Virus record (IMG/VR): IMGVR_UViG_3300009506_000122
Span: 1-64,000 of that record
Strand: one strand, 5' to 3'
Origin: a virus
DNA: 64,000 nucleotides
Below the pieces are notes generated by a model. It had not been told where the DNA came from. It ran no database searches and was given only the letters and a program-made list of their open reading frames with translations. Shown in pieces: positions 9,186 to 40,130 of the stretch; the first letter of the stretch is position 1; each line of letters starts with the position of its first letter. The translations under genes were made by a program, and so were the position numbers.

Positions 9186-11748
9186 ACGTATTGACGCTGA
9201 CTCCGCATGTCTCGAATGTGGTCTATACACTAAATGCAAATCACCTAAGATGGAAGTACATGGTGAAGGCAAGTTAAATTGTCTGCTACTTGCAGAAGCT
9301 CCTGGGGGAGAAGAAGACGAGTATGGTCAACAACTTGTGGGACCTACTGGTAGTTTCTTTAAGAACAGGCTTTTAAAGAATCGCTTTTACTTGAAGACTG
9401 ACTTTTGGAGATTAAACGCAGTTAATTGCAGACCAACCACACCCAAAGGTACAAACAGAACTCCTACCACACATGAGATCGATTGTTGTAGACCAATGGT
9501 AATGGATACAATCGAAAAACTAAAGCCAAAATTTATCTGGCCGATGGGAGGTATAGCTCTTGAATCTTTGTTTAGCCAAGATTTTAAACGCTTGTCAATA
9601 GGTAGATGGCGTGGAACGTTTATACCAGATCAACAATACCAATGTTGGATTATGCCCCTATACCATCCCTCTTACCCTAACCGAGATAAATCAAACAGAA
9701 ACTTAAACGCCTTCTACGATCACGATTTAAAAAGAGCCCTCGATTTTGTTAGAGTGCAAACACCTCTTGATTTTCCAATATATCCTAATGGTAAAAAGAA
9801 TGTGGACGTTGTAACTGACTTTGATTCTATCATTTCGGCTCTCGATCACATATACAATAGTGCTAACCTTATACATATTGACTACGAGACTACTGGCTTA
9901 AAACCATATATACCAGGACACCGTATAGCATCGACAGCTATATCTATATTGGATAGAGTTATAGCTTTTCCTTATGAATATGGTTCATTTTTCACCAATA
10001 AACAAAGACTAAAAATAAAACGTGGTCTAAGAAAGATATGGAAAAATGAGAACATTAGAAAAGTGGCTCATAATGCTAAGTTTGAGCATATTTGGACTAC
10101 TACAATTCTCGATGTTGTGCCTGCTAATTGGTATTGGTGTACTCTACAAGGAGCTCATATCCAAGACAATCGACAGGCTTGGCCTTCGTTGAAGTTTCAA
10201 ACGTATATACACTTTGGTCAACGTGGTTGGGGGAAGAGTGTCAATAAATACCTTGAAGCGACAGATGGCCCATTTAACAACGTTGACAAATGTCCCTTGT
10301 CTGATCTGCTGTTATACAATGGACTTGATGTTTATTGGACTAACATGTTGCATCAGAAGCAGGAAGAATTTTATAATCATCCAGATAATAGTAGATTAAA
10401 GTTTGCCTTCGATTTGTTTAATGAAGGAAGCATTGTGCTTGCAGACGTTCAAAATAATGGAGTACATGTAGATGAGGAGTATTGTCATGCAGAACAAGAA
10501 AGATTCCAAAAGAGAATTGTCGTCATTGAAAAACGTATTTCTGGAAGCAAAGAGGCTAAACTCTTTGAGAGAAGAACGGGCCGCACTCTTTCCCTCAAAG
10601 ATAAAGACTACTCGGACAATGATTTACAAACATTGTTTTATGATATACTTAATCTCGGTCCTGAAAAGAAAGAGGGTCAACCAGCTCCTCCCAGAAAAGT
10701 GGACGAAGAAACTCTCCAAGATTTTGAATCAGAAGTTGCTGATCTCGTACTTAAACGTAGGAAGTTTAGGAAGATTGAAGGAACATATCTCGCACAATTC
10801 ATAAGGGAAACATATTATGGTATTATGTATCCTTGGTATGATCTTATTATTCCTGTATCATATCGTGGTTCGTCACATGATCCCAACTTTCAAAACATTC
10901 CCAAGAGAGACGAGCAAGCTAAAAAGGCTACCCGTAGAGCTATCATACCAAGTCCGGGTAATCAGTTATTAGAGTCTGACTTCTCTGGCATTGAGGTTTG
11001 TATAAATGCTTGCTACAATCAAGACCCAACGCTTATCGCTAACGTTACCGATCCGACTCAAGATATGCACAGAGATACAGCCGCTGATCTTTGGATGATA
11101 CCGATAAAAGAAGTCCACAAGAAAGTGAGATTCTATGCAAAGAACCAGTGGGTGTTTCCTCAGTTTTATGGTAGCTATTATGTTCAATGTGCTAAAAATC
11201 TTTGGCGCACAGCTAAACGGGAAGAATTAAAAACAAATTCTGGTAAACCCTTGCTTGACATTATGCGCTCGAAGGGTATAACTACTTACTCACAGTTTGA
11301 AGATCATTGTAAGGGAGTAGAAAGGAGCTTCTGGCAGGAACGATTCAAAGTTTATGCACAGTGGAAAAATGATATTCAACGCACTTATCAGAATCAAGGC
11401 TTCATAGAAACATTTCTCGGATTTCAATTCAAAACATATATGGGTAGGAACGAGTGTACTAACTATCCAGCTCAAGGTACAGCCTTTCACATTTTACTAT
11501 GGACTCTGATTCAAGTCCATAAAGAGATCAAAAAAAGACAAATGAAATCAAAGATCATAGGTCAGATTCACGATAGTATGATTACCGATGCTGTGCCGAG
11601 TGAAGTAAATGACCTAATCAAGATCATTGATTTTTATGGAACAAAGCGCACCGTTGAAACTTTTAAGTGGATATCGGTGCCTTTGAAGATCGACCACGAA
11701 CTGACTGGTGTAAACGAAAGTTGGTATCTAAAGAAGGAGGTGAAGTAA
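9139..11748 (+). CDS. family A DNA polymerase with N-terminal uracil-DNA glycosylase domain
   Basis: 869 residues in three parts. Residues 1-210 match family 4 (iron-sulfur) uracil-DNA glycosylases: Cys24/27/33, AEAPGGEEDEYGQQLVGPTG (52-71), NCRPTTPKGTNRTPTTHEID with following Cys, and LYHPSYP (184-190). Residues about 240-430 carry a 3'-5' exonuclease beginning HIDYETTGL (Asp248, Glu250). The polymerase palm shows SDFSGIEV (about 613-620) and QIHDSM (about 808-813). It copies the phage genome with the clamp and clamp loader nearby. A glycosylase-like N-domain is also reported for SPO1-type polymerases; whether it excises uracil here or only senses it is not visible. Confidence 0.9.
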   Translation: MEGFFTRDEIERNAVRRIDADSACLECGLYTKCKSPKMEVHGEGKLNCLLLAEAPGGEEDEYGQQLVGPTGSFFKNRLLKNRFYLKTDFWRLNAVNCRPTTPKGTNRTPTTHEIDCCRPMVMDTIEKLKPKFIWPMGGIALESLFSQDFKRLSIGRWRGTFIPDQQYQCWIMPLYHPSYPNRDKSNRNLNAFYDHDLKRALDFVRVQTPLDFPIYPNGKKNVDVVTDFDSIISALDHIYNSANLIHIDYETTGLKPYIPGHRIASTAISILDRVIAFPYEYGSFFTNKQRLKIKRGLRKIWKNENIRKVAHNAKFEHIWTTTILDVVPANWYWCTLQGAHIQDNRQAWPSLKFQTYIHFGQRGWGKSVNKYLEATDGPFNNVDKCPLSDLLLYNGLDVYWTNMLHQKQEEFYNHPDNSRLKFAFDLFNEGSIVLADVQNNGVHVDEEYCHAEQERFQKRIVVIEKRISGSKEAKLFERRTGRTLSLKDKDYSDNDLQTLFYDILNLGPEKKEGQPAPPRKVDEETLQDFESEVADLVLKRRKFRKIEGTYLAQFIRETYYGIMYPWYDLIIPVSYRGSSHDPNFQNIPKRDEQAKKATRRAIIPSPGNQLLESDFSGIEVCINACYNQDPTLIANVTDPTQDMHRDTAADLWMIPIKEVHKKVRFYAKNQWVFPQFYGSYYVQCAKNLWRTAKREELKTNSGKPLLDIMRSKGITTYSQFEDHCKGVERSFWQERFKVYAQWKNDIQRTYQNQGFIETFLGFQFKTYMGRNECTNYPAQGTAFHILLWTLIQVHKEIKKRQMKSKIIGQIHDSMITDAVPSEVNDLIKIIDFYGTKRTVETFKWISVPLKIDHELTGVNESWYLKKEVK

Positions 11749-23382: not shown

Positions 23383-23561
23383 GTGATAGAGTATTAATCC
23401 GATGTATCGACAGAAACTACGAACATAGTTATGTTGGCAGAGAAGGAACAATAAAGAGTGTTACTTCCCAAGAGCCAGAGAATCACTATCAGGTGGAATT
23501 AATCGGTGTTCCTTCAGCAACTCTAACCCTTTTTGACAACGAGCTCCTAAGTGCTAAGTAG
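23370..23561 (+). CDS. small beta-rich (SH3/KOW-like) protein
   Basis: 63 residues from the ATG at 23370, behind AGGAGGTG. MFKVGDRVLIRC, YVGREGTIKSV and a VELIGVPS segment have the pattern of small SH3-type barrels that bind nucleic acid or protein. It is the last + strand gene and overlaps the end of the converging - strand gene by 15 bases. Confidence 0.65.
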   Translation: MFKVGDRVLIRCIDRNYEHSYVGREGTIKSVTSQEPENHYQVELIGVPSATLTLFDNELLSAK

Positions 23562-23942
23562 TTGATAATGAGTTTCAGGATTTCGTCCTTCGAAGAAAGC
23601 GGGGGCTCCTCTTCGCCTGACTGATTCATAATAAACGTGGTCAGCGATCCAAGCCCTCGCTCGTCTTACCGTAAAGTTGCCTGAATTATCAAAGATGATT
23701 CGGAGCATATTGTTTAGGAATATACGATCTGCGATAGCTCGATGAACCTCAGTCTCACCTTCCCAAAATCGGTAATACCAATCGTGAACCCTACATGCTT
23801 CAACTACCGACAATCCCAAGATTCTATCGGGCACAAGATAATCACCTACATCACCAGGACCACACCCCAATGTCAACCATTCTTCTGGGAACTTGTCTCG
23901 ATACTCAAAGCATTTAGGTTCAGCATAGAGTTTCAGTATCAT
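23547..23942 (-). CDS. HDWYY-motif phage protein (DUF1353/phospholipase A2-like)
   Basis: 131 residues behind GAGAGGTG. ACRVHDWYYRFW followed by a helix with ADRIFLNNML and later RRARAWIADHVYYESVRRRGAPAF matches the general layout of DUF1353-type phage proteins and, in the C-x2-HD-x2-Y core with GCGPG upstream, resembles phospholipase A2 catalytic sites. It may act on membranes at entry or lysis; the activity is unproven. It is the last gene of the - strand late region. Confidence 0.6.
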   Translation of the reverse strand: MILKLYAEPKCFEYRDKFPEEWLTLGCGPGDVGDYLVPDRILGLSVVEACRVHDWYYRFWEGETEVHRAIADRIFLNNMLRIIFDNSGNFTVRRARAWIADHVYYESVRRRGAPAFFEGRNPETHYQLLST

Positions 23943-24054: not shown

Positions 24055-24678
24055 TTATGATAGATCACTTCCACGAGCAACCAGTTTAGATTGATAAAAA
24101 CGATACCCAAAATTTTCAATGTCAGCCTGATACATTTGAGCTACCTTAGACCTTGTTATATCATTGTAAAATAGAGAATAATGCTCATGTTCCGTTTGCA
24201 TAAGATGTTCTAAAGGCTCTACCTTTAGTCCTAACTTTTCTCTGACATAATCAAAATCTTTTCTTAGGTTTTCAAATCTACCTACGAAGTCAACATACTT
24301 CCATTCCTTGTGATATGCGAAGGCTGTTTGACTTACTGCGTGATTCCTGATGTCGTCTCTTGTCTCACATATCTTCTCAAAGTTTAGGACAAATTCTTCA
24401 AATGAAGGTATAGGTCCTACCCAACGATCCGCTAAAGGAGAACCCTTTCTTGTGGGTGTGTATGTTGTAAAGTAGACATACAGAGACACAAATCTATCCC
24501 AAGGGTTTCTAACGAAAGTGAACTTGAAAGCCTCTTCAAACCAATCAAACGTGACCTCTTCTAAAAACCTTATAAATCCAGTCTTGTTTGTCCTCATGTT
24601 TAGCGTGACGTAGTTCGGTTGAAGATACCCTCTGTGGAGAGTCGTGCTTGCGTTCTTCGGTATTCGGAAGAATATCAT
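24055..24678 (-). CDS. carbohydrate sulfotransferase-like protein
   Basis: About 207 residues from the ATG at 24678, preceded by AAGGAG; a longer frame to 24744 lacks a ribosome site. FRIPKNASTTLHR at the N-terminus is the 5'-phosphosulfate loop, and FTFVRNPWDRFVSLYVYF the 3'-phosphate-binding loop, of PAPS-dependent family 2 sulfotransferases. These transfer sulfate from PAPS to sugar hydroxyls or amines. It is the last gene of the glycan island, and a second sulfotransferase is at 28872. Sulfation of phage glycans is the inferred role. Confidence 0.82.
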   Translation of the reverse strand: MIFFRIPKNASTTLHRGYLQPNYVTLNMRTNKTGFIRFLEEVTFDWFEEAFKFTFVRNPWDRFVSLYVYFTTYTPTRKGSPLADRWVGPIPSFEEFVLNFEKICETRDDIRNHAVSQTAFAYHKEWKYVDFVGRFENLRKDFDYVREKLGLKVEPLEHLMQTEHEHYSLFYNDITRSKVAQMYQADIENFGYRFYQSKLVARGSDLS

Positions 24679-24831
24679 CTTCGGCTCCTTCATCACAACG
24701 CAGGGTAGCATCAAAACTGCTTTGAAATTTTTGGCGGTAAGCATCTTTATCCCCCATATTAAATCCGTTAAAGTTAAGAACAGTCTCCGCTAAAATCTCC
24801 ATGACTATTCGACTACTTATCCCAACTCCAT

Positions 24832-25881
24832 TTATATAGATGGTGGAGCCCAGATTTGAACCCACTCGTCTATCGTCATTTTTTGACGTGCTTTTATATG
24901 TTCCCTTTGATTTTTGCATTTAACTATGACCTCATCAAACATACGTTTTAGCACTTCAGGACGCCCCTTCGCTATGCTGATGAAACGATTACCAACCTCT
25001 TTCCCCCCGAAAAGATAGGTTGCTAAAATTCTGTTTCTAATGTGGTCGTCATAGTTCCAACTATACCCTCTCTTTTCTCCATGGTGACACAACACGCCGT
25101 TAGGGTATATCCATTTTTTGTAACCCAAAACAGCAAGGGTGTAGTTCATAAAATTCTCACCACCTCCGTATATGCCAAGTTCGCTTGGCCAGCCCCCTAA
25201 CTCGTTGTAAATCTTTTTGGACATCATCATTCCACATGTACTCATGCAGGGTACTTCATACGGGTTTTCTTCTGGTCTAAACGCACTAAACGTATAATGA
25301 ATACCCGCTGGTTTACCTTCATAACGTTCCACGACCAGCTTGTAAATAAGTCTGTGCCATTCTAAAATTTTGTAAGTCAAAGGAAGATGTAACGTACCGT
25401 TGATTTCTTCCTCATGTTCCACATAATACTTAAACATATTATAGATTGAATCTCGTCCTACAATACAATGAGAATCAACAAACATGAGGTAATCCCCTGT
25501 GGCTTGGTCACACCCAAATCTCTTTGAATTCCAGTGACTAAGTTTATCTTTATACTCGAAATACTGTAACCACTGATGTCCTCTCGAACATGCTTTAAGA
25601 GAACCCCCACCTTTATCTTCTTCAAATGAGTTCATAACAAGATCGAAGATCGCTTTTAAATGACCGTCACTTCTATATCCTGTCTTTAAAAGGTGTGCTT
25701 GTAGTTTTTCAAGTTCAATAGCCGTTTGCGCTTTGTGTTGTGTCTCCACCTCAGGACAATAGTTATTTACTGTGATGATTTCAAAGTCTGCCCTGTCTCG
25801 AAGTTCTTCCCCTAAGTTTCTGATCGTGAACATGACCTGAGGATATTCATTAACATAGGGAACGATTATTGATAATTTCAT
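24832..25881 (-). CDS. family GT-A glycosyltransferase resembling polypeptide GalNAc-transferases
   Basis: 349 residues. The N-terminus KLSIIVPYVNEYPQVMFTI is a nucleotide-sugar-binding GT2-type start. The metal motif is MFVDSHC (DSH at 136-138), the D-x-H form that characterises GT27 polypeptide N-acetylgalactosaminyltransferases (LDSHC in animals), not the usual DxD. Further on, LGIYGGGENFMNYTLAVLGY (GGGEN 239-243) matches the WGGEN acceptor-site motif of the same family, and His266-His267 could be the later metal/His ligand. GT27 enzymes start mucin-type O-glycans on Ser/Thr. There is no lectin domain. Thr/Ser-rich virion proteins are encoded a few kilobases away. Confidence 0.8.
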   Translation of the reverse strand: MKLSIIVPYVNEYPQVMFTIRNLGEELRDRADFEIITVNNYCPEVETQHKAQTAIELEKLQAHLLKTGYRSDGHLKAIFDLVMNSFEEDKGGGSLKACSRGHQWLQYFEYKDKLSHWNSKRFGCDQATGDYLMFVDSHCIVGRDSIYNMFKYYVEHEEEINGTLHLPLTYKILEWHRLIYKLVVERYEGKPAGIHYTFSAFRPEENPYEVPCMSTCGMMMSKKIYNELGGWPSELGIYGGGENFMNYTLAVLGYKKWIYPNGVLCHHGEKRGYSWNYDDHIRNRILATYLFGGKEVGNRFISIAKGRPEVLKRMFDEVIVKCKNQREHIKARQKMTIDEWVQIWAPPSI

Positions 25882-25893
25882 AATAACTCCTTT

Positions 25894-26661
25894 CTAAACC
25901 TTTTTCCAGTGAGTAAACCACTCTACATTTACGCCACCTGTTTTCTCGTAACCATGTTGTCTCATCCAATCCCTTCCAATATCATTAATCCCCCTACCAC
26001 TATTTTGCGGCTGAAAGATTCCAAATCGTCTACCAATCACATGCTTCTTTACAAAGTCTGGATAATAGTGAAACTGCTTTTCAGGATTGCGAGTTGGATT
26101 TATATCTTCCGCAGCGGCTCTTAACCAGTCACCGTCATTTAAAGATGGGTGACCACACCAGCCTACTGGCACAATACCCTTTTCTTCAATCTCGAAGAAG
26201 TCCCCATTCCAGAAAGCGAAAAACTTGCCCCACATCTTTGTCTCGTTCTCTTTACTGATAAATTGATTGAGCCTCAGATGAACAAGATTTTCATGGTTCT
26301 CAAATATGGATACCATCTTACGGAAGTCGTGTTCATAGTTGACAACCCAATCTTCCTCAAGGTGAAAGACAAATTTAGAGGTTGACTTCTTAATACCCCA
26401 CAACCAAGCAGTAGGAAAGTGTGGGTCTTTCACGTTCATTTCATAGTTGTCCTTACCAAACAAGTCTTTGACAATCTCTTGAATTTGATAGACCCTATAA
26501 TCAGCTATCTCCTCATTTTCTTCCCCTGCTTTGTCTACGTTGATATAGATTTTGGCAAAGTTAGCATCGTCTTTCCATAATCTATCACAAAACGATACCA
26601 ATGTCCTATTCAACAATTCTGGTCGTAAGGTAGCTACAACAGCAACATCAAAGTTATCCAT
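25894..26661 (-). CDS. glycosyltransferase (GT-A fold)
   Basis: 255 residues. FDVAVVATLRPELLNRTLVSF is a GT-A nucleotide-binding start, and FVFHLEEDWVV provides the acidic metal-binding motif. The C-terminal NDIGRDWMRQHGYEKTGGVNVEWFTHW is conserved in phage and bacterial glycosyltransferases of this kind, as far as I recall. It overlaps the following methyltransferase start. It would extend or decorate the glycan; donor and acceptor are unknown. Confidence 0.75.
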   Translation of the reverse strand: MDNFDVAVVATLRPELLNRTLVSFCDRLWKDDANFAKIYINVDKAGEENEEIADYRVYQIQEIVKDLFGKDNYEMNVKDPHFPTAWLWGIKKSTSKFVFHLEEDWVVNYEHDFRKMVSIFENHENLVHLRLNQFISKENETKMWGKFFAFWNGDFFEIEEKGIVPVGWCGHPSLNDGDWLRAAAEDINPTRNPEKQFHYYPDFVKKHVIGRRFGIFQPQNSGRGINDIGRDWMRQHGYEKTGGVNVEWFTHWKKV

Positions 26662-27274
26662 TTGTCCACCTCTTCCTGTATATTAAACAGTTTTGAAAAA
26701 ATGCTCGAATACCATCTTTATGTTTCCATGGGGAAAGATAGACTCTAAAACGGTCTTCAAGCAACGGTTCTTTCGCATACCCCATATCTTCAAACTTTTG
26801 ATTCCAGTACTCGAAGGGCTGACAGTTGTAATGATGATGTCCTTTCTGTCCTGGTGGAGCGGCTGAAATTACGATATTATACGAAAGATTGCATAGGTTC
26901 TTTACAAACATATCCGCATATTCCTCTTGAATATGCTCTGCTACTTCAAAACAGGATAGTATTTCATATCTTTTAACAATCATAAATTTGTGAACCGATT
27001 CTCTTAGATCACAAAAGGTCACACGCTCTCGTGGACATTCTAAGAATGGAAGAGCTTCTTCGGAACCCTCGATACCATAAGCATCCCACCCACGTCTTAA
27101 CCCCTCATTCACAAGATCACCGATAGCGCAACCTACATCGATATAATCAACGAATGACATTGAATCCAAATTAAAAGTTTTTTCGATAGCGTTGAGTACA
27201 TGAGGAGCTCTCCAACTCAACTTGTACCTACGACTAAAGAAGCCTTTCCCGTATTCCTTCGCAACTGGCGTCAT
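26654..27274 (-). CDS. class I SAM-dependent methyltransferase
   Basis: About 206 residues from the ATG at 27274; an in-frame ATG at 27292 is also possible and neither has a strong ribosome site, so coupling to the overlapping upstream gene is likely. FVDYIDVGCAIGDLVNEG is motif I (GCAIGD), AYGIEGSEEAL the acidic strand 2 end, and ILSCFEVAEHIQEEYADMF the type 11/23 post-motif. APPGQKGHHHYN follows. These enzymes methylate sugars or lipids. Together with the neighbouring glycosyltransferases it probably O-methylates the glycan. Confidence 0.75.
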   Translation of the reverse strand: MTPVAKEYGKGFFSRRYKLSWRAPHVLNAIEKTFNLDSMSFVDYIDVGCAIGDLVNEGLRRGWDAYGIEGSEEALPFLECPRERVTFCDLRESVHKFMIVKRYEILSCFEVAEHIQEEYADMFVKNLCNLSYNIVISAAPPGQKGHHHYNCQPFEYWNQKFEDMGYAKEPLLEDRFRVYLSPWKHKDGIRAFFQNCLIYRKRWTNG

Positions 27275-27815
27275 TGTTATCCATCCACCCATGTGTCTTG
27301 GCTTTTCTAATTATTGTTAAACCAGCTCTTGGTCCTGGTAGGGTTACCATTTCAAGTTTATAAGAACTGTTTCTTAAACTTCTAACTGCTTTCCATGCAC
27401 TCCCACAATATCTTTTTTGACATAATTTCTCATTTATTGGATAGGTATCGTGAAGAAATATCAAACCAGTATGTTCAGGGACATACACTTCTAACCCTAT
27501 AAAGTCCCGCAATACTTGTCGTTTGCTATGGTCACCATCAATAAAAAGAAAGTCTATGACTTTATCCTCTTGTTTGCCCCATTCTTGAACAAAGTCGTCA
27601 CTTGACATTTGAAAGTGTATAGCTCCCTTCTTTTTGTAAATACCTCTAAAAGGAGCTATATCTACCGCAACTGCTCTTTCTACAAGGGGAGCTACCCTAT
27701 TATAAACATATCCCTTTTTAACTCCTATCTCACAATATGTTTTGGGTTTAAATAGCATTACTAACTCAAGAATTAAGTCCCTAAACTCTTGATATTTTTG
27801 TCCCTTTTCGTGCAT
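27234..27815 (-). CDS. class I SAM-dependent methyltransferase (Methyltransf_24)
   Basis: 193 residues. KTYCEIGVKKGYVYNRV is motif I; VAVDIAPFRG and DFLFIDGDHSKRQVLRDF are the type 24 signature, with GLIFLHDTY after it, the pattern of sugar and macrolide O-methyltransferases that use a metal. It resembles the enzyme at 21326. It overlaps both neighbours, so the island is translated as a tightly coupled operon. Confidence 0.78.
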   Translation of the reverse strand: MHEKGQKYQEFRDLILELVMLFKPKTYCEIGVKKGYVYNRVAPLVERAVAVDIAPFRGIYKKKGAIHFQMSSDDFVQEWGKQEDKVIDFLFIDGDHSKRQVLRDFIGLEVYVPEHTGLIFLHDTYPINEKLCQKRYCGSAWKAVRSLRNSSYKLEMVTLPGPRAGLTIIRKAKTHGWMDNNDASCEGIRERLL

Positions 27816-28927
27816 AGTCTTAAAAATTCCTTCTTTGCTTCGAGCGTAGGTTTGGTATTATTTCTCATAAAATCAAATACGAACCTTATGTTAGGGTAAC
27901 ATGCTTCTTTAAAGCCTTGATTCTGTTTAAAGAAGTTAGCCACAAATTTTCGATTAGGAGTTTTGGACAATAGCTTGTGCATAAGTTCAACAACTTGTTC
28001 GGTATTATTAACATCTTTGGGAGTCAACGATACGTTTTCATCACAAACTGTTGGACTATGGTAACGTCTGCTCCCAACAATTAGAGGTAGACCAGAAGCA
28101 AGAGCTTCGAGAGCGCCCCTATCACCCTGACCATGAGTGCCAAGAAACATGCCAATTTTAGAGCGATTAAAAACGTTTGCGTTCAAATTCTCACGGGACA
28201 GCATACCTGTAATAGTGACATTTAATCCATGATCGTGAATCTTCGTCATTATCTTTGAGGTCTGAACACCACGAGTGCCAAACCCAGGAAGTATGGCTTT
28301 TAAATTCTTACCATACTTCTCCTTGTATGCTATAAGTGCGTTGATAACACGCCATTGACCCTTCTTGTCGTGAATATGAGAAGCACCTATACAAACATCA
28401 TAAAAGATAGTTTGATCCATAGGGTAGAATATGCTTTCGTCTATCGGTTTTTTGTAATAGTACCATACCCTATTATGTCGGTCAATCTCCGTATTTTCAT
28501 ACAAATCCCACAGAATAATATCCCAAAATGTCCAACGTTCCCTACCAGTATTTGCATTGTAACACATCAGCCAATTCTTATTTTTGTGAAATGTTAAGAA
28601 CTCGTGCCACCCTCTAAATCCACCTCTGACATAGATTATTGTATCAGGTTTCACAAATTGATACACCCACTTGATTGAGGGGCATACATACCCAACAATA
28701 CCACGACCCCAATCAGCGAACCCCGGACCTCTATTCGACTCATAAAATACCATGACATCGTCCACAACACCTGTTCGCTTCAACTCTGAAAGCATTAGAA
28801 ATGTTCCTTCAGATTTCATAGCATCTGTATATTTATCGATACATGGATAGTTTGGGTCCCAGTTGCTAATTTCAGATTGGGGCGCACTCCCCTGGCTCAT
28901 ATACAGATAAACAACTTTTAAACTCAT
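27773..28927 (-). CDS. glycosyltransferase family 4-like (GT-B)
   Basis: 384 residues. The C-terminal half carries DRGALEALASGLPLIVGSRR, the EALA-G-P motif that binds the nucleotide-sugar in GT4 enzymes, and VTITGMLSRENLNANVFNRSK upstream. The N-terminal half has the acceptor domain (TIIYVRGGFRGWHEFL). Retaining sugar transfer from a nucleotide donor is expected. It overlaps the sulfotransferase gene before it by 56 bases. Confidence 0.78.
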   Translation of the reverse strand: MSLKVVYLYMSQGSAPQSEISNWDPNYPCIDKYTDAMKSEGTFLMLSELKRTGVVDDVMVFYESNRGPGFADWGRGIVGYVCPSIKWVYQFVKPDTIIYVRGGFRGWHEFLTFHKNKNWLMCYNANTGRERWTFWDIILWDLYENTEIDRHNRVWYYYKKPIDESIFYPMDQTIFYDVCIGASHIHDKKGQWRVINALIAYKEKYGKNLKAILPGFGTRGVQTSKIMTKIHDHGLNVTITGMLSRENLNANVFNRSKIGMFLGTHGQGDRGALEALASGLPLIVGSRRYHSPTVCDENVSLTPKDVNNTEQVVELMHKLLSKTPNRKFVANFFKQNQGFKEACYPNIRFVFDFMRNNTKPTLEAKKEFLRLCTKRDKNIKSLGT

Positions 28928-29594
28928 GGATTAACCTCTTTCTTGCCTTATAGTAAAATGCGATATCCTTCTTATTCAAATTAGCACAGTAACATTTCTC
29001 CTCTGGTGTGCCCCACTTAAACCACTGTCGTTTCAGTCTTCTCGTATTTCTTCGGTAGTATGGAGGTATCTCATGCCCAATTACTTGAGATAAAACACAA
29101 AGACTTTCTTCGTACATTTCCATTATCCCAATAAAAGCAAAGTCGTCAACATCATAGTCGCCCACATAATTTTTAAAAACCTCGTTATGATTATCACAGT
29201 ACCATGTAAAGTCCCTCTTTTCGAGTATGACCTCTTTATGTAGGGGACTTGATCTTCCAGTTATTCGTTTCTGTTTGATTACCGAATATTCAGATTCCAT
29301 TCTTGATACCGGATGTCTTAACCATGTTATATACGGTCTTTTCAAAAAGCTGTATTTATCTACGTTAATGTGTCCATGAACAACATCAGCATTAGCCAAA
29401 TGTCTTGAATTGTAATACTTTAGTCTGCCATGAACAAACACAGAATCTTCACTTTTGTCCCAAAGAAACCTTTCCCCATAGATGTCTTGAAATATAAAAC
29501 CGAGTGTAGTACCTCCACATTTATGAACGTGAATAGATACAAATTCACTTATTGGCTTCTTCCCTAACAAATTTATTCCAGAATCCTCGCTCAT
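28872..29594 (-). CDS. carbohydrate sulfotransferase-like protein (second copy)
   Basis: 240 residues. SIHVHKCGGTTLGFIFQDI is the 5'-phosphosulfate loop in the form of heparan- and chondroitin-type sulfotransferases (HIPKTGGT), and YITWLRHPVSRMESEYS the 3'-phosphate loop. PAPS would come from the host. It is unlike the enzyme at 24055, so two different positions may be sulfated. No signal peptide or membrane anchor is visible, so it acts in the cytoplasm. Confidence 0.82.
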   Translation of the reverse strand: MSEDSGINLLGKKPISEFVSIHVHKCGGTTLGFIFQDIYGERFLWDKSEDSVFVHGRLKYYNSRHLANADVVHGHINVDKYSFLKRPYITWLRHPVSRMESEYSVIKQKRITGRSSPLHKEVILEKRDFTWYCDNHNEVFKNYVGDYDVDDFAFIGIMEMYEESLCVLSQVIGHEIPPYYRRNTRRLKRQWFKWGTPEEKCYCANLNKKDIAFYYKARKRLIHEFKSCLSVYEPGECAPI

Positions 29595-30237
29595 GCTTTA
29601 AAACCCCCTTATAATTCAAACTGGCCGAAACATTATTAACTCCCGGTATGTGGTAAATAAAGCATGGATACAGTTGAACAAAAGCTAAACCAAGTTTGTG
29701 TATAATATGATGCCCTATCCAATTATCCCCAAAGAATATATTGTAATGATCGGGAATCAAAGGTACTGCATTGGCTACTTCTCGCTTCATTAGTACCGCA
29801 GAGCATTTACCTTTGCCTGTACCAAGAAGAAGACCTCTCAAATGCTCCAGCCGAATGTTTTTGGTTTTTATTGGTCTTCTTTTTTCTTGTTGTATGATTT
29901 CTGGAACTACTGCACCAGCTTCAACACCGTCATATTTTATATTTAATCCGTATACCATCTTCTCTACCATTGTAGGTTCGAGTCTGTAATCATCACCCAA
30001 AATTCCACAGTAAGTGTCTTCGAGTCTCAGAGCTATATTCCAAACTGGATTAGTACCAAGATTCTTACTGGGACGTTCTACCACAAGATCGTATAGGTAT
30101 TTGGTATTACTAAAATATTGCGTAGAATTATCCACCAGTATTACACGAGTTGGGAGCAACGTCTGATTGTTCAGATCATGCAGTACCCTTCTCACCATTA
30201 TTGGTCGCATAGATGGTATGACAAATGATATGGTCAT
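29545..30237 (-). CDS. glycosyltransferase family 2-like
   Basis: 230 residues. TISFVIPSMRPIMVRRVLHDL is the GT2 nucleotide-binding start, VILVDNST the next strand, and CGILGDDYRLEP contains the DxD-type metal motif (GDD). The length is that of a minimal GT-A domain. The start overlaps the radical SAM gene upstream (stop/start). Substrate unknown. Confidence 0.78.
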   Translation of the reverse strand: MTISFVIPSMRPIMVRRVLHDLNNQTLLPTRVILVDNSTQYFSNTKYLYDLVVERPSKNLGTNPVWNIALRLEDTYCGILGDDYRLEPTMVEKMVYGLNIKYDGVEAGAVVPEIIQQEKRRPIKTKNIRLEHLRGLLLGTGKGKCSAVLMKREVANAVPLIPDHYNIFFGDNWIGHHIIHKLGLAFVQLYPCFIYHIPGVNNVSASLNYKGVLKHERGFWNKFVREEANK

Positions 30238-31202
30238 ATAAATCTTCGGTGTCTTAGAGGAAGATATTGACTCCCTCTTGCGTTCTCATAAACCTTAGCA
30301 TAGTTTGAGTACCGACAAGATGCACCACACATGCTGAGATCTGGTTTAAATACTGGTCTCCACTTAGAATATATCTCTAAAAGATTCATGTGGTTTAAAT
30401 CACCAATCTCAAACTGGGGCTTTCCTCTATGAATACAGCAATAGTAGATTTTCCCAGTAGCATTTAGAACACCGATTAAACCAGCGATCTTACACGCTGT
30501 CAAGGAATTTCGATCTATATTGTATCGCTCAGTAACAAAGAACTTATCTCTATTCAAGCCCTTCATTTCAGCTTCTATATCACAGTTCCTAACTTCTGGT
30601 TTGACTTGTGCATAGTGAGCTCCTACAGACTTCGAGAGTTCGTAAAAATCATCCACTTCTTTCCTATTATAATCTGTAACAACAAACGCAAGACCCACGT
30701 CTGTTACATTCTTATCAACCACATGTTTTACATTTTCGATTATTCGATTGAAGTGTTTGGTGTGCTTTGTTTGATAGTATGTCTCAGCATTAGACGTGTC
30801 CAAACTGACTCTAACAAATTCTAACTCTCCCAACACCTCTCCAATCTTATCAAGAAATATGCCATTGGTGACTAAACCACATTTTATTCCTAAACGGGTA
30901 GCAAACTTCACCATATCTACAATCTTAGGATTCATTAATGGTTCACCACCACCAGTAAATGTGATCGATTTAACACCAGTACGATAAAAATCCCAGACCG
31001 CTTTCACATATAAATCATACGACAAATGAACCCTATGATTTTTAATGTGAAAGGCAAACATGCAAAAGTCACAATCATTTTGACATGTGTTGGAAGCATC
31101 TATTTCGAAGGATACTGGTAACTGATAACGATTCTCCATAAGATTATCTACTTCCCGTAGAAAGAACAGTATCTTATGCCCGAAACCCACTTCATTATTC
31201 AT
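30234..31202 (-). CDS. radical SAM enzyme with Cys-rich C-terminus (SPASM-like)
   Basis: About 322 residues from the ATG at 31202, behind GGAGGT that overlaps the end of the previous gene. SNTCQNDCDFCMFAFH is a CX3CX2C radical SAM cluster motif; ITFTGGGEPLMNP is the GGE SAM-binding motif; SLDTSNAETY follows. The C-terminal CGASCRYSNYAK and the earlier CKIAG and YYCCIHRG segments supply additional cysteines for an auxiliary cluster as in SPASM/twitch proteins. Such enzymes modify peptides, sugars or nucleosides. Its place in the middle of the glycan operon suggests radical modification of a sugar or of the protein acceptor. Confidence 0.82.
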   Translation of the reverse strand: MNNEVGFGHKILFFLREVDNLMENRYQLPVSFEIDASNTCQNDCDFCMFAFHIKNHRVHLSYDLYVKAVWDFYRTGVKSITFTGGGEPLMNPKIVDMVKFATRLGIKCGLVTNGIFLDKIGEVLGELEFVRVSLDTSNAETYYQTKHTKHFNRIIENVKHVVDKNVTDVGLAFVVTDYNRKEVDDFYELSKSVGAHYAQVKPEVRNCDIEAEMKGLNRDKFFVTERYNIDRNSLTACKIAGLIGVLNATGKIYYCCIHRGKPQFEIGDLNHMNLLEIYSKWRPVFKPDLSMCGASCRYSNYAKVYENARGSQYLPLRHRRFI

Positions 31203-31204
31203 AA

Positions 31205-32470
31205 CTACCTCCAAGTCATAGATTCAGCAAATAAGGGCTCATACTCATTAAAATATAAGTTGTCATAATTATACTGCTGTCGCATCCAAGTTTTGGCCAT
31301 AACTGCATCGTCTTGACGCATACGACCGAGAATGATAGTTGAAAGGTCTTCATAATACTTCCCCGCATTTTTGTGATGGACTTCATGGTGATAAGAACCA
31401 AAGTCAAAGTACAATCCATAACCACCACCGACTTCGCCCAACATTCTTAGCGACTTATTAACCATAGGTATGACAGCACTTGACAAGACAGCTTCTGGAT
31501 ATACTAAACCAAATGATTCTTCTCGGGTAGGAAAGATGAAAAGATTGGCGCAGAGCATAAGCTCCCTTAAAAATTGCTTATGAATCCCAGCGTCAAATTT
31601 AGGTGATTCAAAATCATTGGTGAATATCACTTCCACATCTGGTATTAAACCAGCTTGTGTTGCAAGTCGTTTGTAGTTTTCAACATTCTCTTTCTGTTGT
31701 CTACCAGTAGCCCATTGTGCGGCTACTACCAAACACACGGTGCGATTTCTTTTTTTGATCTCAGACATGATGATTATAACTTCCCGAACACGTTTAGCTG
31801 ATAGTCTATCCACAGAAGCAGGATAGATTTTAACAATGTCAGCGTTCATAACACCCGGATACTTCTGAATAAATCGACATGTGTCCTCGTGAAAGTCAAA
31901 CCATGTTCTCAGGTCTTTGATATGGTGAATACACCGAACATGCTCTAAAGCGCCTTGATATTGTTCAGCAACCAATATCTTGTCTGTATTGTTGGGGTAA
32001 ATCATCTTGTGAAATGGTCCCCACTCTGCTACTTTCCACCAATCTTTAGCCGCGGTAGGCACGCTGTGAATCCAGTGAAACCAACGAGTCTTCGGCAAGA
32101 ACGGTGTCGCTTTGAGAATACCAAGACCATACGGCATATTCCACCCTGTAAACAAAAAGTCATGGGTCAGAACAAGTCGAACATCTTTTAATTCCTCGCA
32201 CAGCATTTCAGAGGTTTCATCAATCGTTCTCTGATGATCCTCTGTCAAGTCTACTCTCGATTTGTAATCGATCAAGTGGGCAAATGGGATTTTCTTCTTA
32301 ATTGTAATGCCAGGTGGAATTGTTTTTTCATTGAAACGAGTACAGGTATATAAATCAACCTCATGACCATGTTCGGTCAACATTCTGTACTGATCTGTCA
32401 CAATGCCTGTTAAAGAGTAAGATGGGTTAAAGTCCTGAAATGTGGTGAGAATTGCTACTTTGTCATTCAT
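31205..32470 (-). CDS. glycosyltransferase family 4-like (GT-B), first gene of the glycan island
   Basis: 421 residues behind GGAGAAA. KVAILTTFQDFNPSYSLTGIV and VVAAQWATGRQQKENV are GT-B features, and FIFPTREESFGLVYPEAVLSSAVIPMV is the GT4 EX7E donor-binding motif. It is the first gene downstream of a promoter-like element at 32520-32548, so it probably heads the operon that ends at 24055. Confidence 0.8.
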   Translation of the reverse strand: MNDKVAILTTFQDFNPSYSLTGIVTDQYRMLTEHGHEVDLYTCTRFNEKTIPPGITIKKKIPFAHLIDYKSRVDLTEDHQRTIDETSEMLCEELKDVRLVLTHDFLFTGWNMPYGLGILKATPFLPKTRWFHWIHSVPTAAKDWWKVAEWGPFHKMIYPNNTDKILVAEQYQGALEHVRCIHHIKDLRTWFDFHEDTCRFIQKYPGVMNADIVKIYPASVDRLSAKRVREVIIIMSEIKKRNRTVCLVVAAQWATGRQQKENVENYKRLATQAGLIPDVEVIFTNDFESPKFDAGIHKQFLRELMLCANLFIFPTREESFGLVYPEAVLSSAVIPMVNKSLRMLGEVGGGYGLYFDFGSYHHEVHHKNAGKYYEDLSTIILGRMRQDDAVMAKTWMRQQYNYDNLYFNEYEPLFAESMTWR

Positions 32471-32555: not shown

Positions 32556-32882
32556 TTATGACCGGGGCTTCTCTTTTACATATAGGAATACATCTTTTTC
32601 AAAAAGATTATTTTGGTTTGTTCCCATTTTAAAGGTAATACAATATGGAGACGCAGTTTCAACACCCTCATCGGCTTTTATGCGTTGATACAATTTCAAC
32701 CCATCAGAAGAAACAGAAGGATTTCCCTGCAACAAATCAGCGGCATCAGTACCATCTTTATCCTGACAAGTCACCTCAGAACTGATTGCCGTAATCTGTT
32801 CACCTGTTTGAGCAACATTAGCAATCCCACCATAAATGCTAAAAGTTTCAGAAGCCTGTTTTGTTAATTGACTAATCGCCAT
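32556..32882 (-). CDS. small putative virion protein next to the Thr-rich protein
   Basis: 108 residues, behind AAGGAGAT. SETFSIYGGIANVAQTGEQIT and a later SPYCITFKMG look like a compact beta protein; proteins of this size and position often accompany phage fibre genes. It overlaps the end of the Thr-rich gene by 11 bases. No firm family. Confidence 0.6.
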   Translation of the reverse strand: MAISQLTKQASETFSIYGGIANVAQTGEQITAISSEVTCQDKDGTDAADLLQGNPSVSSDGLKLYQRIKADEGVETASPYCITFKMGTNQNNLFEKDVFLYVKEKPRS

Positions 32883-34029
32883 AATGATCTCCTTCTGGGT
32901 CTATTTCAAACCCGAATTGTATTTCTTCTCGTTCAAAACCAAACTCAATCGCCTCACGCTCAAAGCCATACATAGCAAATTGTATCGGTGGACCTGTTGT
33001 AGTTGTACTAAACGTACTCGTGGATGACATTGTCGAGGTCGTTGTGCTAAACGTACTCGTGGAACTTGCTGTCGAACTCGTTGAGGACGATGTGCTAACA
33101 GTACTTGTGGTCGTGCTGGTTGTTGATGTAGACGAAGACGAAGACACCGTTGAGGACGTAGTACTCGTAGTCGTACTGGTCGTTGAGGACGTAGTTGTAG
33201 TAGTGGTCGTCATTGAATCGTCAAGGACCAGTCTATCTATATACAGAAAATGTCCTACCGTACCAGGCCAGTCGTGAATGATCTGTAATCTAAACTCTCC
33301 GTTCTGAACATAGTTGTTAGTGTATATAAACCATGATCTTTGCTCGTCTGAGGCTCTGCTTATCAGTTGATTATAGGGTAAATCAACCCATTGTGCCTGA
33401 GTAAAATTCCAAGCTCTGACGAAGACCTGATGTGCAGGATTTCCACTATAATACCCTTCAAATCTGACACCAAACGAAGGTATTGACGGGATATTTTCAA
33501 AGTGAAACTCGTAATTATACCCCGGATTAGCAACTGTTTCATTCAGTACCAGATATGTTCCATCAGCAATCCTTGTGTCTTCTACCGATCCGCTGTTTAC
33601 CGATCCAGCATTTATTACAAGGTGATTGACATAGTACCATGGAATACCCGTTGTCGTGGTTGTGGACGTGGTACTGCTTGACGTACTCGTGGTCAACGTG
33701 CTTGTCGTAGTCGTTGTGGATGTCGTTGACGAAGTCGTGGTTGAGAACGTGGTTGATGTTGTCGAGGACGTGGTAGTTGATACCGTACTCGAAGTAGTGG
33801 ATGTGGTAGTGCTTGTCGTGGACGTGGTACTCGAAGTCGAAGACGTTGTTTCACTTGTGGTTGTGGACGTCTGTGTACTCGTAGTGGATGAAGTCGTGGT
33901 CGTAGTTGTAGTACTTGTGGTGGAAGTTTCACCAGGTTCAGTTGTAGTGGTCGTGCTGAATGTCGAAGTTGTGGTTGACGTAGTCGTAGACGTAGTACTC
34001 GAAGTCTCCGACGTTGTCGTGGTGGACAT
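32872..34029 (-). CDS. Thr/Ser-rich virion protein, C-terminal part (frameshifted from the gene at 34217-37063)
   Basis: The part from the first ATG codes 385 residues, but the frame is open far upstream and continues the Thr-rich reading of the gene at 34217. Removing one copy of the 16-bp duplication at 34212-34243 joins both into one protein of about 1391 residues. This part holds Thr/Ser tract, a globular beta domain (about 150-275, starting IPWYYVNHLVINAG, possibly carbohydrate-binding), another Thr/Ser tract, and a C-terminal tip with a short repeat (GFEREAIEF, GFEREEIQF, GFEID). The ATG at 34029 is itself inside the tract, so it is a poor start. Likely an exposed appendage or fibre. 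Confidence 0.65.
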   Translation of the reverse strand: MSTTTTSETSSTTSTTTSTTTSTFSTTTTTEPGETSTTSTTTTTTTSSTTSTQTSTTTSETTSSTSSTTSTTSTTTSTTSSTVSTTTSSTTSTTFSTTTSSTTSTTTTTSTLTTSTSSSTTSTTTTTGIPWYYVNHLVINAGSVNSGSVEDTRIADGTYLVLNETVANPGYNYEFHFENIPSIPSFGVRFEGYYSGNPAHQVFVRAWNFTQAQWVDLPYNQLISRASDEQRSWFIYTNNYVQNGEFRLQIIHDWPGTVGHFLYIDRLVLDDSMTTTTTTTSSTTSTTTSTTSSTVSSSSSTSTTSTTTSTVSTSSSTSSTASSTSTFSTTTSTMSSTSTFSTTTTGPPIQFAMYGFEREAIEFGFEREEIQFGFEIDPEGDHYGD

Positions 34030-34211: not shown

Positions 34212-34243
34212 TGGTACTAAAGGTTGATGGTACTAAAGGTTGA
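34212..34243. repeat. 16-bp perfect tandem duplication causing a frameshift
   Basis: TGGTACTAAAGGTTGA occurs twice in direct tandem (34212-34227 and 34228-34243). 16 is not a multiple of three. On the - strand the second copy brings in the stop that ends the upstream frame as STFSTINL, while a single copy would read STFSTTTTTEPGETS and continue for another 440 residues. Confidence 0.9.
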
Positions 34244-37063
34244 CGTGGTCGTGGACGTAGTACTCGTAGTCGAGGACGTTGTCTCGCTCGTGGTGGTACT
34301 GCTAAAGGTTGACGTAGTGGAGGACGTGGTCGTGGACGTAGTGGTACTGGTCGTAGTCGTGGTCGATGTCGATGTTTCTGTACTTGTGGTCGTGGATGTG
34401 ATAGTACTGGTCGTGCTTGACGTGGTTGTTGTCAAAGTTGACGTAGTCGTGGACGTGGTGGTACTTGACGTGGACGTAGTTGTACTTGACGTGGAACTGG
34501 TGGTCTCACTCGTGGTTGTTGTGCTGAATGTAGATGTTGTGGAGCTTGTGGTAGTCGTAGTAGTCGTGGATGAAGTACTTGTCTCACCAGGCTCCGTTGT
34601 GGTTGTTGTGCTGAAAGTTGACGTTGAAGACATCGTACTCGTAGTCGAGGACGATGTAGTGGACGTTGTCGAAGACGTGGTTGACGTAGTCGTAATTGAC
34701 GTTGTCGAGGTCGTGGATGAGGTACTCGAAGTTGAGGTTGTACTCGTAGTCGTGGTCGTGGTCGAGAATGTTGTAGTAGAACTGATTGTACTTGTGGTGG
34801 ATGAAGTCGTGGTTGACGTAGTCGTGGTTGTAGTACTTGTAGTGGTCGTAGCACCAGTATCCCAATTCAAAATAACGATACCAGAATCATTACTACTATT
34901 GGTAATATCTGTCCAGTCACAAGAAATAGCATCAGTAGAATTATACCGCTGAATAAGGGCAGTTGCTCCACCAGGCGTAACACTTCCCTGATAATATTCA
35001 ACCTCATCAAGTGTAAAATCCCCACTTGGAGTTGGGTCTGTCACTTGATCGTAAATATTAACAACTGATAGTATCCAATCCCCAACTTGATCTGGAGTAG
35101 CACTACCAGTAGTAATATCAGTATCAAGGCTGTAATCCGCTATTGGATCAACTTGAGATACGCCACTTAAAGCATACACGAATACAGAACTAAAAGATGT
35201 GTTTACTGTGAATGTATGACCACTACCTACTGTTGGATTTAAGCAGTAATAGAACGTAACATACTGACCACCAGTTGTATCTGATGGTCCAAGCTCGGTC
35301 CAACTATTACCTTTACTATCTTCAAAACTGTGGGTTACATTATAAAACGCAACGCCCACAATTATAAAATCAGCTCCAGTAGTGTCTATTGCTCCAGTGA
35401 CATTAGCAGTAGCCCCAGAAGCCTTTACTTGAGCAACTATGTCAATAAGAGGGGCAGGAGGACCAGTAGTAGTCGTAGTCGAGGTTGTCGAGGTCGTGGT
35501 ACTCGAAGTTGTAGACGACCGTGTAGTCGTGGACGTGGTACTCGAAGTTGAGGTTGTACTCGAAGTTGAGGATGTAGTAGTTGAAGACTTAGTAACCGTA
35601 GTCGTGGACGTGGTACTCGTAGTCGAGGTTGTCGAGGTCGTAGTTGTAGGTTGTTTCGTGGGTTCTTCATAAGTGTCAGTCCTAATGGTGATATTATCAA
35701 TGAAGCCCTCAACTGTTTGAGAGTCCCCACCAAACATACCTACCATTAATTCATCTACTGTCCACGATTGAGCGGAACCAGTAATACCACCAGAACCTAT
35801 CACATCACCATTTATTTTAGCTTCCCAAGTGTAATCACTTAAATCCCATTTTAATTGAAATACATAACGACTACCTACTCTAAGTTTTGGTCCAGGTATA
35901 TAATTAGAAGTCCCATCATGACTAACCACAATTTGAACAATAGCATCCCCAGCACCTTTATAAAGCATAAATTGTCCGGGGCTATTGACACCGCCAGCAC
36001 CATACAATCTTAGAAAATACTTCTCATTTCCACCGGTAGTAATACCACTTCCATGATGATATTCAGCGGTCACAAAAACTGTGCTAAGATTTCCTAAACC
36101 AAGATGTTCTACATAAGCATCTCTCCTTGTGCTTGAATCGTCATAACATTGAGCCCTCAAACATTGACTATCCCACCCTTGAGGATATCCCAAATTAGAT
36201 GTTGCATAATCCTCATCCATGACACAGTTAGCATGTTCAAGCGTCTCTCCCTCGCTCCATGTTTCTTCATACCCTGAACCTTCAAATCTTTCATCCCAAA
36301 CAACCGCAGGTACTGGTTCAGTTGTGGTTGTAGAGGTCGTAGTACTGGTGGTTGTCGAGGTCGTACTACTTGAGGACGTAGTACTTGAGGTCATAGTACT
36401 GGTGGTTGTAGAGGACGTACTACTGGTGGTTGAAGTCGTAGACGAGGTCGTAGACGAAGACACCGTTGAGGACGTAGTACTCGTAGTCGAGGACGTGGTA
36501 GTTGTAGTACTTGTAGTGGACGTTATTGAATAAATTGTAACTGTGGAAGCAACGGTGTTATTTAATGGTGTATTACCATTGGTTACGTTGACTACCCTAA
36601 AAGAATAGACACCTCCTGCAACAGCATTTTCTGGGGATAGTCCCCATTGAGCTTCAATCCAGTCGCCAGAAGATATACTCAAAGTACCTGAATCTGGGAG
36701 AGTATTATCACTCTCATTCATGCGGGCAGTGCCAGTCCCACCGCAACCTGCGGGAGCTGTGGCAATTCTCAGAGTTCCAGTACCATCATCAGAAGCTATC
36801 CCACTTACATCAGTCCAACATATTTCTGAGACATCTGAAACATCATTCCAACCCAAAGCATCACGTTGCCATTGAAGTTTTACTTGGGCGGCATTGGGAG
36901 CTTTATTACATGCTAAAGTTAAAGAATACCCAATTTGAACACACAGAATAAACTTATCAGTTGTTAGCCAATCAGTAAAAACGCCATTATCAGCAGTTTG
37001 TCCAGTCCAGTCTTCACCGGCAAGACGAGAGTTGGCGTGGGTATCAATGTAATAAGTTCCCAT
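34217..37063 (-). CDS. giant mucin-like Thr/Ser-rich virion protein, N-terminal part
   Basis: 948 residues. Order of parts: N-terminal beta domain (about 1-180), Thr/Ser tract, a lectin-like beta domain (about 255-475, from VVWDERFEGSGYEETW), Thr/Ser tract, a second beta domain (about 540-740, from PLIDIVAQVKASG), then about 200 residues of Thr/Ser with occasional Thr-Glu-Pro-Gly-Glu spacers. Codons for Thr and Ser vary freely, so selection is on the protein, not on a DNA microsatellite. The frame is cut by a 16-bp duplication. Beads on flexible mucin-like strings suggest a fibre or decoration and a natural target for the O-glycosylation genes that follow. Confidence 0.75.
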   Translation of the reverse strand: MGTYYIDTHANSRLAGEDWTGQTADNGVFTDWLTTDKFILCVQIGYSLTLACNKAPNAAQVKLQWQRDALGWNDVSDVSEICWTDVSGIASDDGTGTLRIATAPAGCGGTGTARMNESDNTLPDSGTLSISSGDWIEAQWGLSPENAVAGGVYSFRVVNVTNGNTPLNNTVASTVTIYSITSTTSTTTTTSSTTSTTSSTVSSSTTSSTTSTTSSTSSTTTSTMTSSTTSSSSTTSTTTSTTTSTTTTEPVPAVVWDERFEGSGYEETWSEGETLEHANCVMDEDYATSNLGYPQGWDSQCLRAQCYDDSSTRRDAYVEHLGLGNLSTVFVTAEYHHGSGITTGGNEKYFLRLYGAGGVNSPGQFMLYKGAGDAIVQIVVSHDGTSNYIPGPKLRVGSRYVFQLKWDLSDYTWEAKINGDVIGSGGITGSAQSWTVDELMVGMFGGDSQTVEGFIDNITIRTDTYEEPTKQPTTTTSTTSTTSTTSTTTVTKSSTTTSSTSSTTSTSSTTSTTTRSSTTSSTTTSTTSTTTTTGPPAPLIDIVAQVKASGATANVTGAIDTTGADFIIVGVAFYNVTHSFEDSKGNSWTELGPSDTTGGQYVTFYYCLNPTVGSGHTFTVNTSFSSVFVYALSGVSQVDPIADYSLDTDITTGSATPDQVGDWILSVVNIYDQVTDPTPSGDFTLDEVEYYQGSVTPGGATALIQRYNSTDAISCDWTDITNSSNDSGIVILNWDTGATTTTSTTTTTTSTTTSSTTSTISSTTTFSTTTTTTSTTSTSSTSSTTSTTSITTTSTTSSTTSTTSSSTTSTMSSTSTFSTTTTTEPGETSTSSTTTTTTTSSTTSTFSTTTTSETTSSTSSTTTSTSSTTTSTTTSTLTTTTSSTTSTITSTTTSTETSTSTTTTTSTTTSTTTSSTTSTFSSTTTSETTSSTTSTTSTTTSTFSTINL

Positions 37064-39845: not shown

Positions 39846-40130
39846 CTATACCGTAGAGACCACAACTGTGGTCGTGTTTACGTTTGTTCCCCCTGCGACA
39901 GGCGGATAAGTTGTCGTGGTTGATGATGTAGCCGTCGTAGTCGTTGAGGAGGTTGTTGTTGATTGTGTGTTCGTTGTGGTAGTAGAGGACGTTGTGGAAC
40001 TCATAGTGGTTGTCGTTCTCTCGTCTAACCACTCGATTGTCTGATACGTCACACGAACATTAGGGGAATTAAAATCTTCTTCCAAATATTCTATGGACGT
40101 ATAAGTATTTCTAACTGTGACATTAGGCAT
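39846..40130 (-). CDS. small virion protein with internal Thr/Ser tract
   Basis: 94 residues. The first 38 residues form a short two-repeat beta unit (TVRNTYTSIEYLEEDF, then VRVTYQTIEWLDER). A Thr/Ser tract of about 35 residues follows, then PPVAGGTNVNTTTVVVSTV. The tract shares composition with the tails of the main virion proteins. Confidence 0.65.
   Translation of the reverse strand: MPNVTVRNTYTSIEYLEEDFNSPNVRVTYQTIEWLDERTTTTMSSTTSSTTTTNTQSTTTSSTTTTATSSTTTTYPPVAGGTNVNTTTVVVSTV

Follow-up and report, generated by a model that had tools for sequence, protein, structure and literature searches.

Gene and phage setting

The stretch of DNA analysed here, referred to as the window, comprises 64,000 nucleotides (positions 1 to 64,000) of the IMG/VR virus record IMGVR_UViG_3300009506_000122, which has 67,201 bases in total. 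An open reading frame of its minus strand (25881 to 24832) encodes a protein of 349 aa, predicted to be a GT27-like glycosyltransferase:

24832–25881, minus strand: predicted GT27-like glycosyltransferase, GT-A fold, no lectin domain, 349 aa (open reading frame with Shine-Dalgarno sequence, PF00535, AF2 model, fold match)

The limits 24832–25881 proposed in the first-pass annotation, which was made from the letters alone, hold exactly, the coding strand being the minus strand; the plus strand across these positions contains many stops. The gene starts with ATG and is preceded by a strong Shine-Dalgarno sequence (AAAGGAG). Its product matches PF00535 (E 4.6e-10) and has no membrane segment. Annotation of this protein by Pfam, PHROGs and NCBIfam alone yields only a generic GT2 assignment.

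The bacteriophage origin assumed in the same annotation is borne out by the genes of TerL, portal, major capsid protein, tape measure and DNA polymerase on the same contig. The tailed-phage module (TerL, portal, Phage_cap_E capsid, major tail, tape measure) is located on the minus strand, upstream of the cassette described below. A 131-aa open reading frame (23547–23942, minus strand) with a CGPG...HD pattern is weakly matched by prokaryotic phospholipase A2 (PF09056, E 0.008) and DUF1353, and has a homologue in the tail-bearing contig G398.

Glycosylation cassette

In the window, as in related contigs, the GT27-like gene closes a conserved cassette located downstream of the tail genes. The order of the core genes is constant: a 421-aa GT4-like glycosyltransferase, a 384-aa GT-B enzyme, a 212-aa methyltransferase, a 255-aa glycosyltransferase and the GT27-like enzyme. 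Homologues of these genes, named in the same order, were found in 40, 30, 30, 33 and 49 of 49 loci, the final figure following from the way the loci were chosen. The genes of this region in the window, all on the minus strand, are the following:

31205–32470, minus strand: 421-aa GT-B/GT4-like glycosyltransferase, first cassette gene (weak PF00534; 40/49 loci)
30234–31214, minus strand: radical SAM protein (PF04055, E 4.5e-19)
29545–30237, minus strand: GT2-like glycosyltransferase, 230 aa (weak PF00535; 13/49 loci)
28872–29594, minus strand: sulfotransferase, PF03567 (E 4e-5, above the Pfam cut-off)
27773–28927, minus strand: GT-B glycosyltransferase, cassette gene (PF00534 just below the cut-off; 30/49 loci)
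27234–27815, minus strand: methyltransferase, PF13578 (Pfam; 10/49 loci)
26654–27292, minus strand: methyltransferase, cassette gene (weak, PF13489-like; 30/49 loci)
25894–26661, minus strand: 255-aa probable GT-A glycosyltransferase with an EEDW motif, cassette gene (33/49 loci)
24055–24744, minus strand: sulfotransferase, phrog_3347 galactose-3-O-sulfotransferase (PF03567, PHROGs)

No Pfam or PDB match was obtained for the 255-aa protein. Beyond the core cassette, the window contains two sulfotransferases, the radical SAM protein, another glycosyltransferase and another methyltransferase. The natural reading of this gene content, which remains an inference, is that the glycan product is elaborated, methylated and sulfated. 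Relatives of the radical SAM protein occur in 3 of the 49 loci, and the models that match it best are those of MoaA and of SPASM-type maturases.

Threonine- and serine-tailed virion proteins

Six proteins of the window end in Thr/Ser runs, the major capsid and major tail proteins being among them, and two large proteins consist of 45–51% Ser+Thr. The Thr/Ser-rich proteins are listed below:

56362–57687, minus strand: major capsid protein (PF03864, phrog_29) with a C-terminal Thr/Ser tail (Pfam, PHROGs)
54854–55546, minus strand: head-tail region protein, designated T230, with a C-terminal Thr/Ser tail
51816–52460, minus strand: major tail protein (phrog_117) with a C-terminal Thr/Ser tail
41218–41802, minus strand: tail protein with a C-terminal Thr/Ser tail
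40140–41207, minus strand: virion-module protein with a C-terminal Thr/Ser tail
39846–40130, minus strand: 94-aa protein, 48% Ser+Thr
34217–37063, minus strand: 948-aa protein with folded segments and mucin-like Ser/Thr stalks, 45% Ser+Thr
32872–34029, minus strand: mucin-like protein, 51% Ser+Thr

The tail of the capsid protein includes the sequence GESATSTTTTTSSTSTTTST. Codons are fully mixed within the Thr/Ser runs, all four Thr and six Ser codons being in use; the tails are therefore selected as protein sequence, and their origin as nucleotide repeats or by slippage is ruled out.

The phage of locus L221 (IMGVR_UViG_3300010413_000107) is nearly identical to that of the window, with 100% identity of the capsid protein. 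The mucin-like protein encoded at 34217–37063 is 95% identical there and differs in length, so that Ser/Thr stalks may evolve fast.

Predicted fold and active site

Modelling by AF2 with 53 sequences of the phage family gave pLDDT 95.2 and pTM 0.92; a model built with five sequences (pLDDT 60) was discarded. In a Foldseek search of the PDB the best 50 chains were all GalNAc-transferases (GalNAc-Ts), with a best E of 2e-15. The comparison of folds proposed at first pass was carried out by VIA-align, where GalNAc-T2 (6nqt_F) ranks first (Z 29.4, rmsd 2.7, 282 residues), and the 29 GalNAc-T entries listed have Z of 25.5–29.4 and rmsd of 2.5–3.0 over 272–288 residues. The best matches outside GT27 are WrtF (Z 20.9), heparosan synthase (20.3) and the chondroitin polymerase K4CP (19.9). 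These and other GT-A enzymes have the fold in common with the phage protein, but at Z of 19–21, and all GalNAc-T structures listed outrank every other glycosyltransferase. A bacterial GT2 as the best structural match, which would have refuted the assignment according to the first-pass annotation, was thus not encountered. The whole model covers the catalytic domain of GalNAc-T2; it aligns to residues 136–439 only, ending before the lectin domain, in agreement with the compact, lectin-free architecture that had been suggested. Identity of the phage enzyme to GalNAc-Ts is only 11–16%. A 36-residue insertion follows the second beta strand (aa 51–86); it is missing in several relatives and differs in sequence in others.

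Two motifs had originally been singled out as counterparts of the GalNAc-T metal and acceptor motifs. Both are present, in order and about 100 residues apart as in GalNAc-Ts, and HHGEKRGY can be added to them as a third conserved element:

25465–25482, minus strand, aa 134–139: FVDSHC, DxH metal motif with D136 and H138 (D and H in 53/53 sequences; aligned to DSHC/DCHC of GalNAc-Ts)
25150–25170, minus strand, aa 238–244: YGGGENF, counterpart of GalNAc-T WGGEN (GGE in 53/53; aligned to WGGEN/WGGEQ)
25063–25086, minus strand, aa 266–273: HHGEKRGY, counterpart of the GHxFRKxxPY loop (H266 and Y273 in 53/53; aligned to GHIFRKRSPY of PGANT9)

The 53 phage sequences agree without exception in N40, S115-H116-W117, K120, D136, H138, Y196, G217, G240-G241-E242, H266 and Y273. 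Since this set includes D136, H138, G240-G241-E242, H266 and Y273, the motifs are more than chance resemblances. At the position of WGGEN, GGE is invariant, N is found in 38 of 53 sequences, and W is replaced by Y plus one extra G. In sequence alignments with GalNAc-Ts, D136 and H138 correspond to DxH, H266 to the histidine of GHxF and Y273 to the tyrosine of PY. In GALNT1, Asp209 and His211 (DxH) form the metal site together with His344 (PMC4202792). Judging from the alignment, without inspection of coordinates, H266 is likely to be the third metal ligand of the phage enzyme. The closest bacterial GT2s have DxD in nearly all cases, not DxH.

Relation to GT27 and GT2 families

Sequence evidence for formal membership in GT27 is weaker than that of the fold. 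When the profile of the 53 phage sequences was compared with the PDB, the top seven matches were GalNAc-Ts (E 3.9e-11 to 1.2e-8), with GALNT10 at E 3.9e-11 and both motifs in register. In hhalign, a generic bacterial GT2 profile gave 8.9e-28 vs. 7e-16 for GalNAc-T fragments, the profiles being unequal in depth and length. The phylogeny called for at first pass separates the phage and GalNAc-T group from bacterial GT2 with a support of 82/84. The tree rests on 238 columns and 17 GT2 sequences, its support is below the usual bar, and its branches are long. The grouping is therefore only suggestive and strict GT27 membership is not settled: the GT27-like reading is supported by the fold, whereas the sequence evidence is suggestive rather than decisive, which is why the enzyme is named "GT27-like" here.

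The good scores of generic GT2 profiles against this family leave room for an ordinary GT2-type enzyme acting on host surface polysaccharide or LPS, with a change of receptor or superinfection exclusion as the result and the tails serving as unmodified stalks. Surface-modifying glycosyltransferases are common in phages. Such a role is nevertheless very unlikely. The enzyme lacks a membrane segment, no flippase or GtrA/B-like partner was noted in the cassette, and the gene is located downstream of tail genes and is missing, with every other cassette gene, from the tail-less relatives considered below; the fold gap to any GT2 exceeds 4 Z units.

Co-occurrence of tails and cassette

Relatives for the comparison of tails were fetched by capsid sequence alone. 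The tail-less relatives constitute the sole comparison set, with no random-phage control. Tails are all-or-none per genome: where the capsid protein is tailed, the major tail protein and T230 are tailed too, and where it is not, these two stop close to their final conserved residue. The tails of locus L274 escaped the automatic threshold.

Ser/Thr runs occur in 13 of the 15 contigs of at least 40 kb that carry the GT27-like gene. The remaining two were examined as possible carriers without tails by the strict Ser/Thr screen: the fourteenth, G449, has short Thr tails on two virion proteins, and G450 is devoid of any marker virion proteins. Conversely, the GT27-like gene is found in eight of nine tail-bearing contigs of at least 60 kb, and the ninth (G045) stops 37 bases past the 255-aa cassette gene. 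In all three tail-bearing contigs lacking the GT27-like gene (G045, G397, G398), the contig ends inside the cassette. No cassette gene was found in seven tail-less relatives (31–67 kb, with homologous capsid and tail proteins). Downstream of the gene for the capsid protein or T230, these contigs cover 17–35 kb, and in carriers the transferase is located about 21–32 kb downstream. Not all seven are therefore fully informative. The association of the enzyme with Thr/Ser-tailed virion proteins, which are its likely acceptors, was not made in the first-pass annotation.

On the capsid tree, tailed and tail-less phages form two clades, the sole exception (L293) being cut by a contig end. The split of the Phage_cap_E lineage is a single event, and co-occurrence within it therefore counts once. 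Such a single gain or loss of tails is compatible with tails and cassette being linked only through shared phage lineage, the tails acting as flexible spacers, and poly-Thr tails are indeed also known from phages without the GT27-like gene. The exact poly-Thr-Ala-stop pattern is rare (only 91 stretches in 2.9 million contigs), and among the 78 contigs tested the GT27-like gene is found in six (about three lineages), the whole collection containing 55 loci; in the other 72 of 78, many of them fragments, no copy is detectable. Mere shared lineage is given very little credence all the same, as Thr tails are also found in cassette carriers of a different virion lineage, whose capsid and major tail proteins are unrelated to those above (phrog_687 structural, phrog_807 major tail); moreover, tails are all-or-none across several proteins per genome, and the cassette genes are all missing together from tail-less relatives.

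Poly-Thr C-terminal tails were also observed in many unrelated phage contigs without the GT27-like gene (L100–L179), some of them, in phages of 190–256 kb, with TTTTTTTNAPTTTTTTTHAP repeats.

Distribution and possible hosts

Iterated alignment searches of IMG/VR revealed 55 loci with 33–54% identity. Scans of IMG/VR and plasmids with the single protein found no relatives, and alignment searches were needed. Several phages contain more than one GT27-like copy, in tandem or otherwise (L069:5696-7734; L084:8961-11008; L095:6416-8238 and 9995-10942), as if the family were diversifying for different acceptors or steps.

Copies of the gene are also present in two Deltaproteobacteria/Desulfobacteraceae assemblies. 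When 297 genomes were sampled from the phylum to which one such assembly belongs, a true member (E < 1e-130) was present in just two, and the matches that followed were ordinary GT2s with E of about 1e-11 at best; the family thus looks phage-borne. The open reading frames of the Desulfobacteraceae contig, read by eye, comprise phage tail genes on the left and host metabolic genes on the right, which suggests a prophage edge and hosts among sulfate-reducing bacteria. The window virus infects sediment bacteria.

The sole relative found in an isolated phage is gp2 of Tunturiibacter phage Tunturi_4 (PP885687.1; L002:1567-2565), which has 24% identity and is encoded between terminase and portal. 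Like the window enzyme, it has a DxH-type motif (DNHC) and HWSGKRGY; unlike it, it has YAGEE instead of YGGGEN. No Thr tails were seen within the first 22 kb of Tunturi_4. With no relative found in any other isolated phage, it is a possible laboratory model.

Comparison with known systems

The GT27 enzymes compared are human GalNAc-T2, T4, T10 and T12, Drosophila PGANT9 and Toxoplasma GalNAc-T3. In common with the phage enzyme they have the GT-A catalytic-domain fold, DxH, the third metal histidine, GGE(N) and the tyrosine of the following loop, and likely a Thr/Ser-rich peptide acceptor. In the phage enzyme, in turn, DDxS is replaced by (D/N)NxC and REGLxRxR by LSHWxxK; it lacks the lectin domain and any secretory or membrane anchor, and it is phage-borne.

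In serine-rich repeat glycoproteins, a glycosyltransferase cassette (GtfA/GtfB) lies beside Ser/Thr-rich acceptor genes and O-glycosylation is cytoplasmic. Unlike in the phage, the initiator is a GT4 pair, and it is adhesins of the cell wall, not virions, that are modified.

To our knowledge, neither a GT27-like fold nor dedicated Thr/Ser tails at the C-terminus occur in the glycosylation systems of mycobacteriophages, a direct comparison not having been made. Glycosylation of virions is established for Che8, Corndog and related phages, and phage glycosyltransferase and methyltransferase genes near structural genes likewise go together with glycosylated virion proteins (Freeman et al. 2023, cited in PMC11256854; PMC4351075).

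According to a review of 2014, no bacterial equivalent of polypeptide GalNAc-transferases had been identified (PMC4202792). In the open-access literature, to which the search was confined, neither Thr-tailed virions nor an enzyme resembling GalNAc-Ts was found to be reported for viruses of prokaryotes, and this absence proves little.

Proposed function

The predicted fold of the enzyme is that of the animal transferases by which mucin glycans are initiated; in related viruses it travels with Thr/Ser-tailed capsid and tail proteins, and these phages therefore probably sugar-coat their own particles, much as mucins are built in animals. The preferred reading is phage-encoded mucin-type O-glycosylation of virion tails, in which the GT27-like enzyme transfers a UDP-sugar to Thr/Ser. 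A probability of roughly 0.7 is assigned to it; chemistry, donor and acceptor are inferred, and there are no biochemical data. The claim on the acceptor side is derived from the similarity of the predicted fold and from genomic association. Directly supported by the analysis are the fold, the conservation of the catalytic pattern and of the cassette, the Thr/Ser tails, and the occurrence of these tails together with the cassette.

The enzyme would be a cytoplasmic, metal-dependent GT-A transferase of the polypeptide GalNAc-transferase type, its retaining transfer activity being inferred as well. It would most likely bind a UDP-sugar (UDP-GalNAc or UDP-GlcNAc) by means of a metal coordinated by D136, H138 and H266, and move the sugar to Thr/Ser of virion proteins encoded by the phage itself (major capsid, major tail and other tail proteins), within their C-terminal tails and mucin-like stalks. 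The glycan would then be extended, methylated and sulfated by the two GT-B enzymes, one or two further glycosyltransferases, the methyltransferases and, in this phage, the sulfotransferases. The particle would exit the cell wearing a mucin-type O-glycan coat; virion glycans and their benefit to the phage are inferred. A role in DNA glycosylation was set aside, since the fold and the link to tails point elsewhere.

That the GT27-like enzyme adds the first sugar is likewise an inference. The tails could instead be primed by the 421-aa GT4-like enzyme, the GT27-like enzyme extending the glycan. The 421-aa gene is the first of the cassette and nearly as conserved (40/49 loci), it is present in tail-bearing contigs that end short of the GT27-like gene, and a precedent is provided by GtfA, a GT4 enzyme acting on the Ser/Thr-rich streptococcal Ser-rich repeat proteins. 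Its product, however, matches generic GT-B models only, whereas in the GT27-like enzyme the fold match to dedicated polypeptide transferases extends through the C-terminal half, on the acceptor side, and even GalNAc-Ts that prefer prior glycosylation still modify peptide Thr/Ser. Initiation by the 421-aa enzyme is thus considered unlikely.

Biological meaning

A soluble, lectin-free enzyme of this fold, about 310–350 aa long and encoded in one genome with its likely acceptors, offers a testable prokaryotic mucin-type system and is a practical candidate for producing mucin-like proteins in bacteria. If true, the preferred reading explains why several virion proteins of one phage have Thr/Ser tails of the same kind, and it suggests a sugar shield on environmental phages. 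The broader proposal, in which phages run a full mucin-type pathway on dedicated tails and the initiating enzymes form a sister lineage of animal GT27 in viruses of prokaryotes, is tentative and somewhat doubtful at present. The phage enzyme might provide a root for the GT27 tree, and if the sister-lineage reading is true, GT27 chemistry predates or lies outside eukaryotes.
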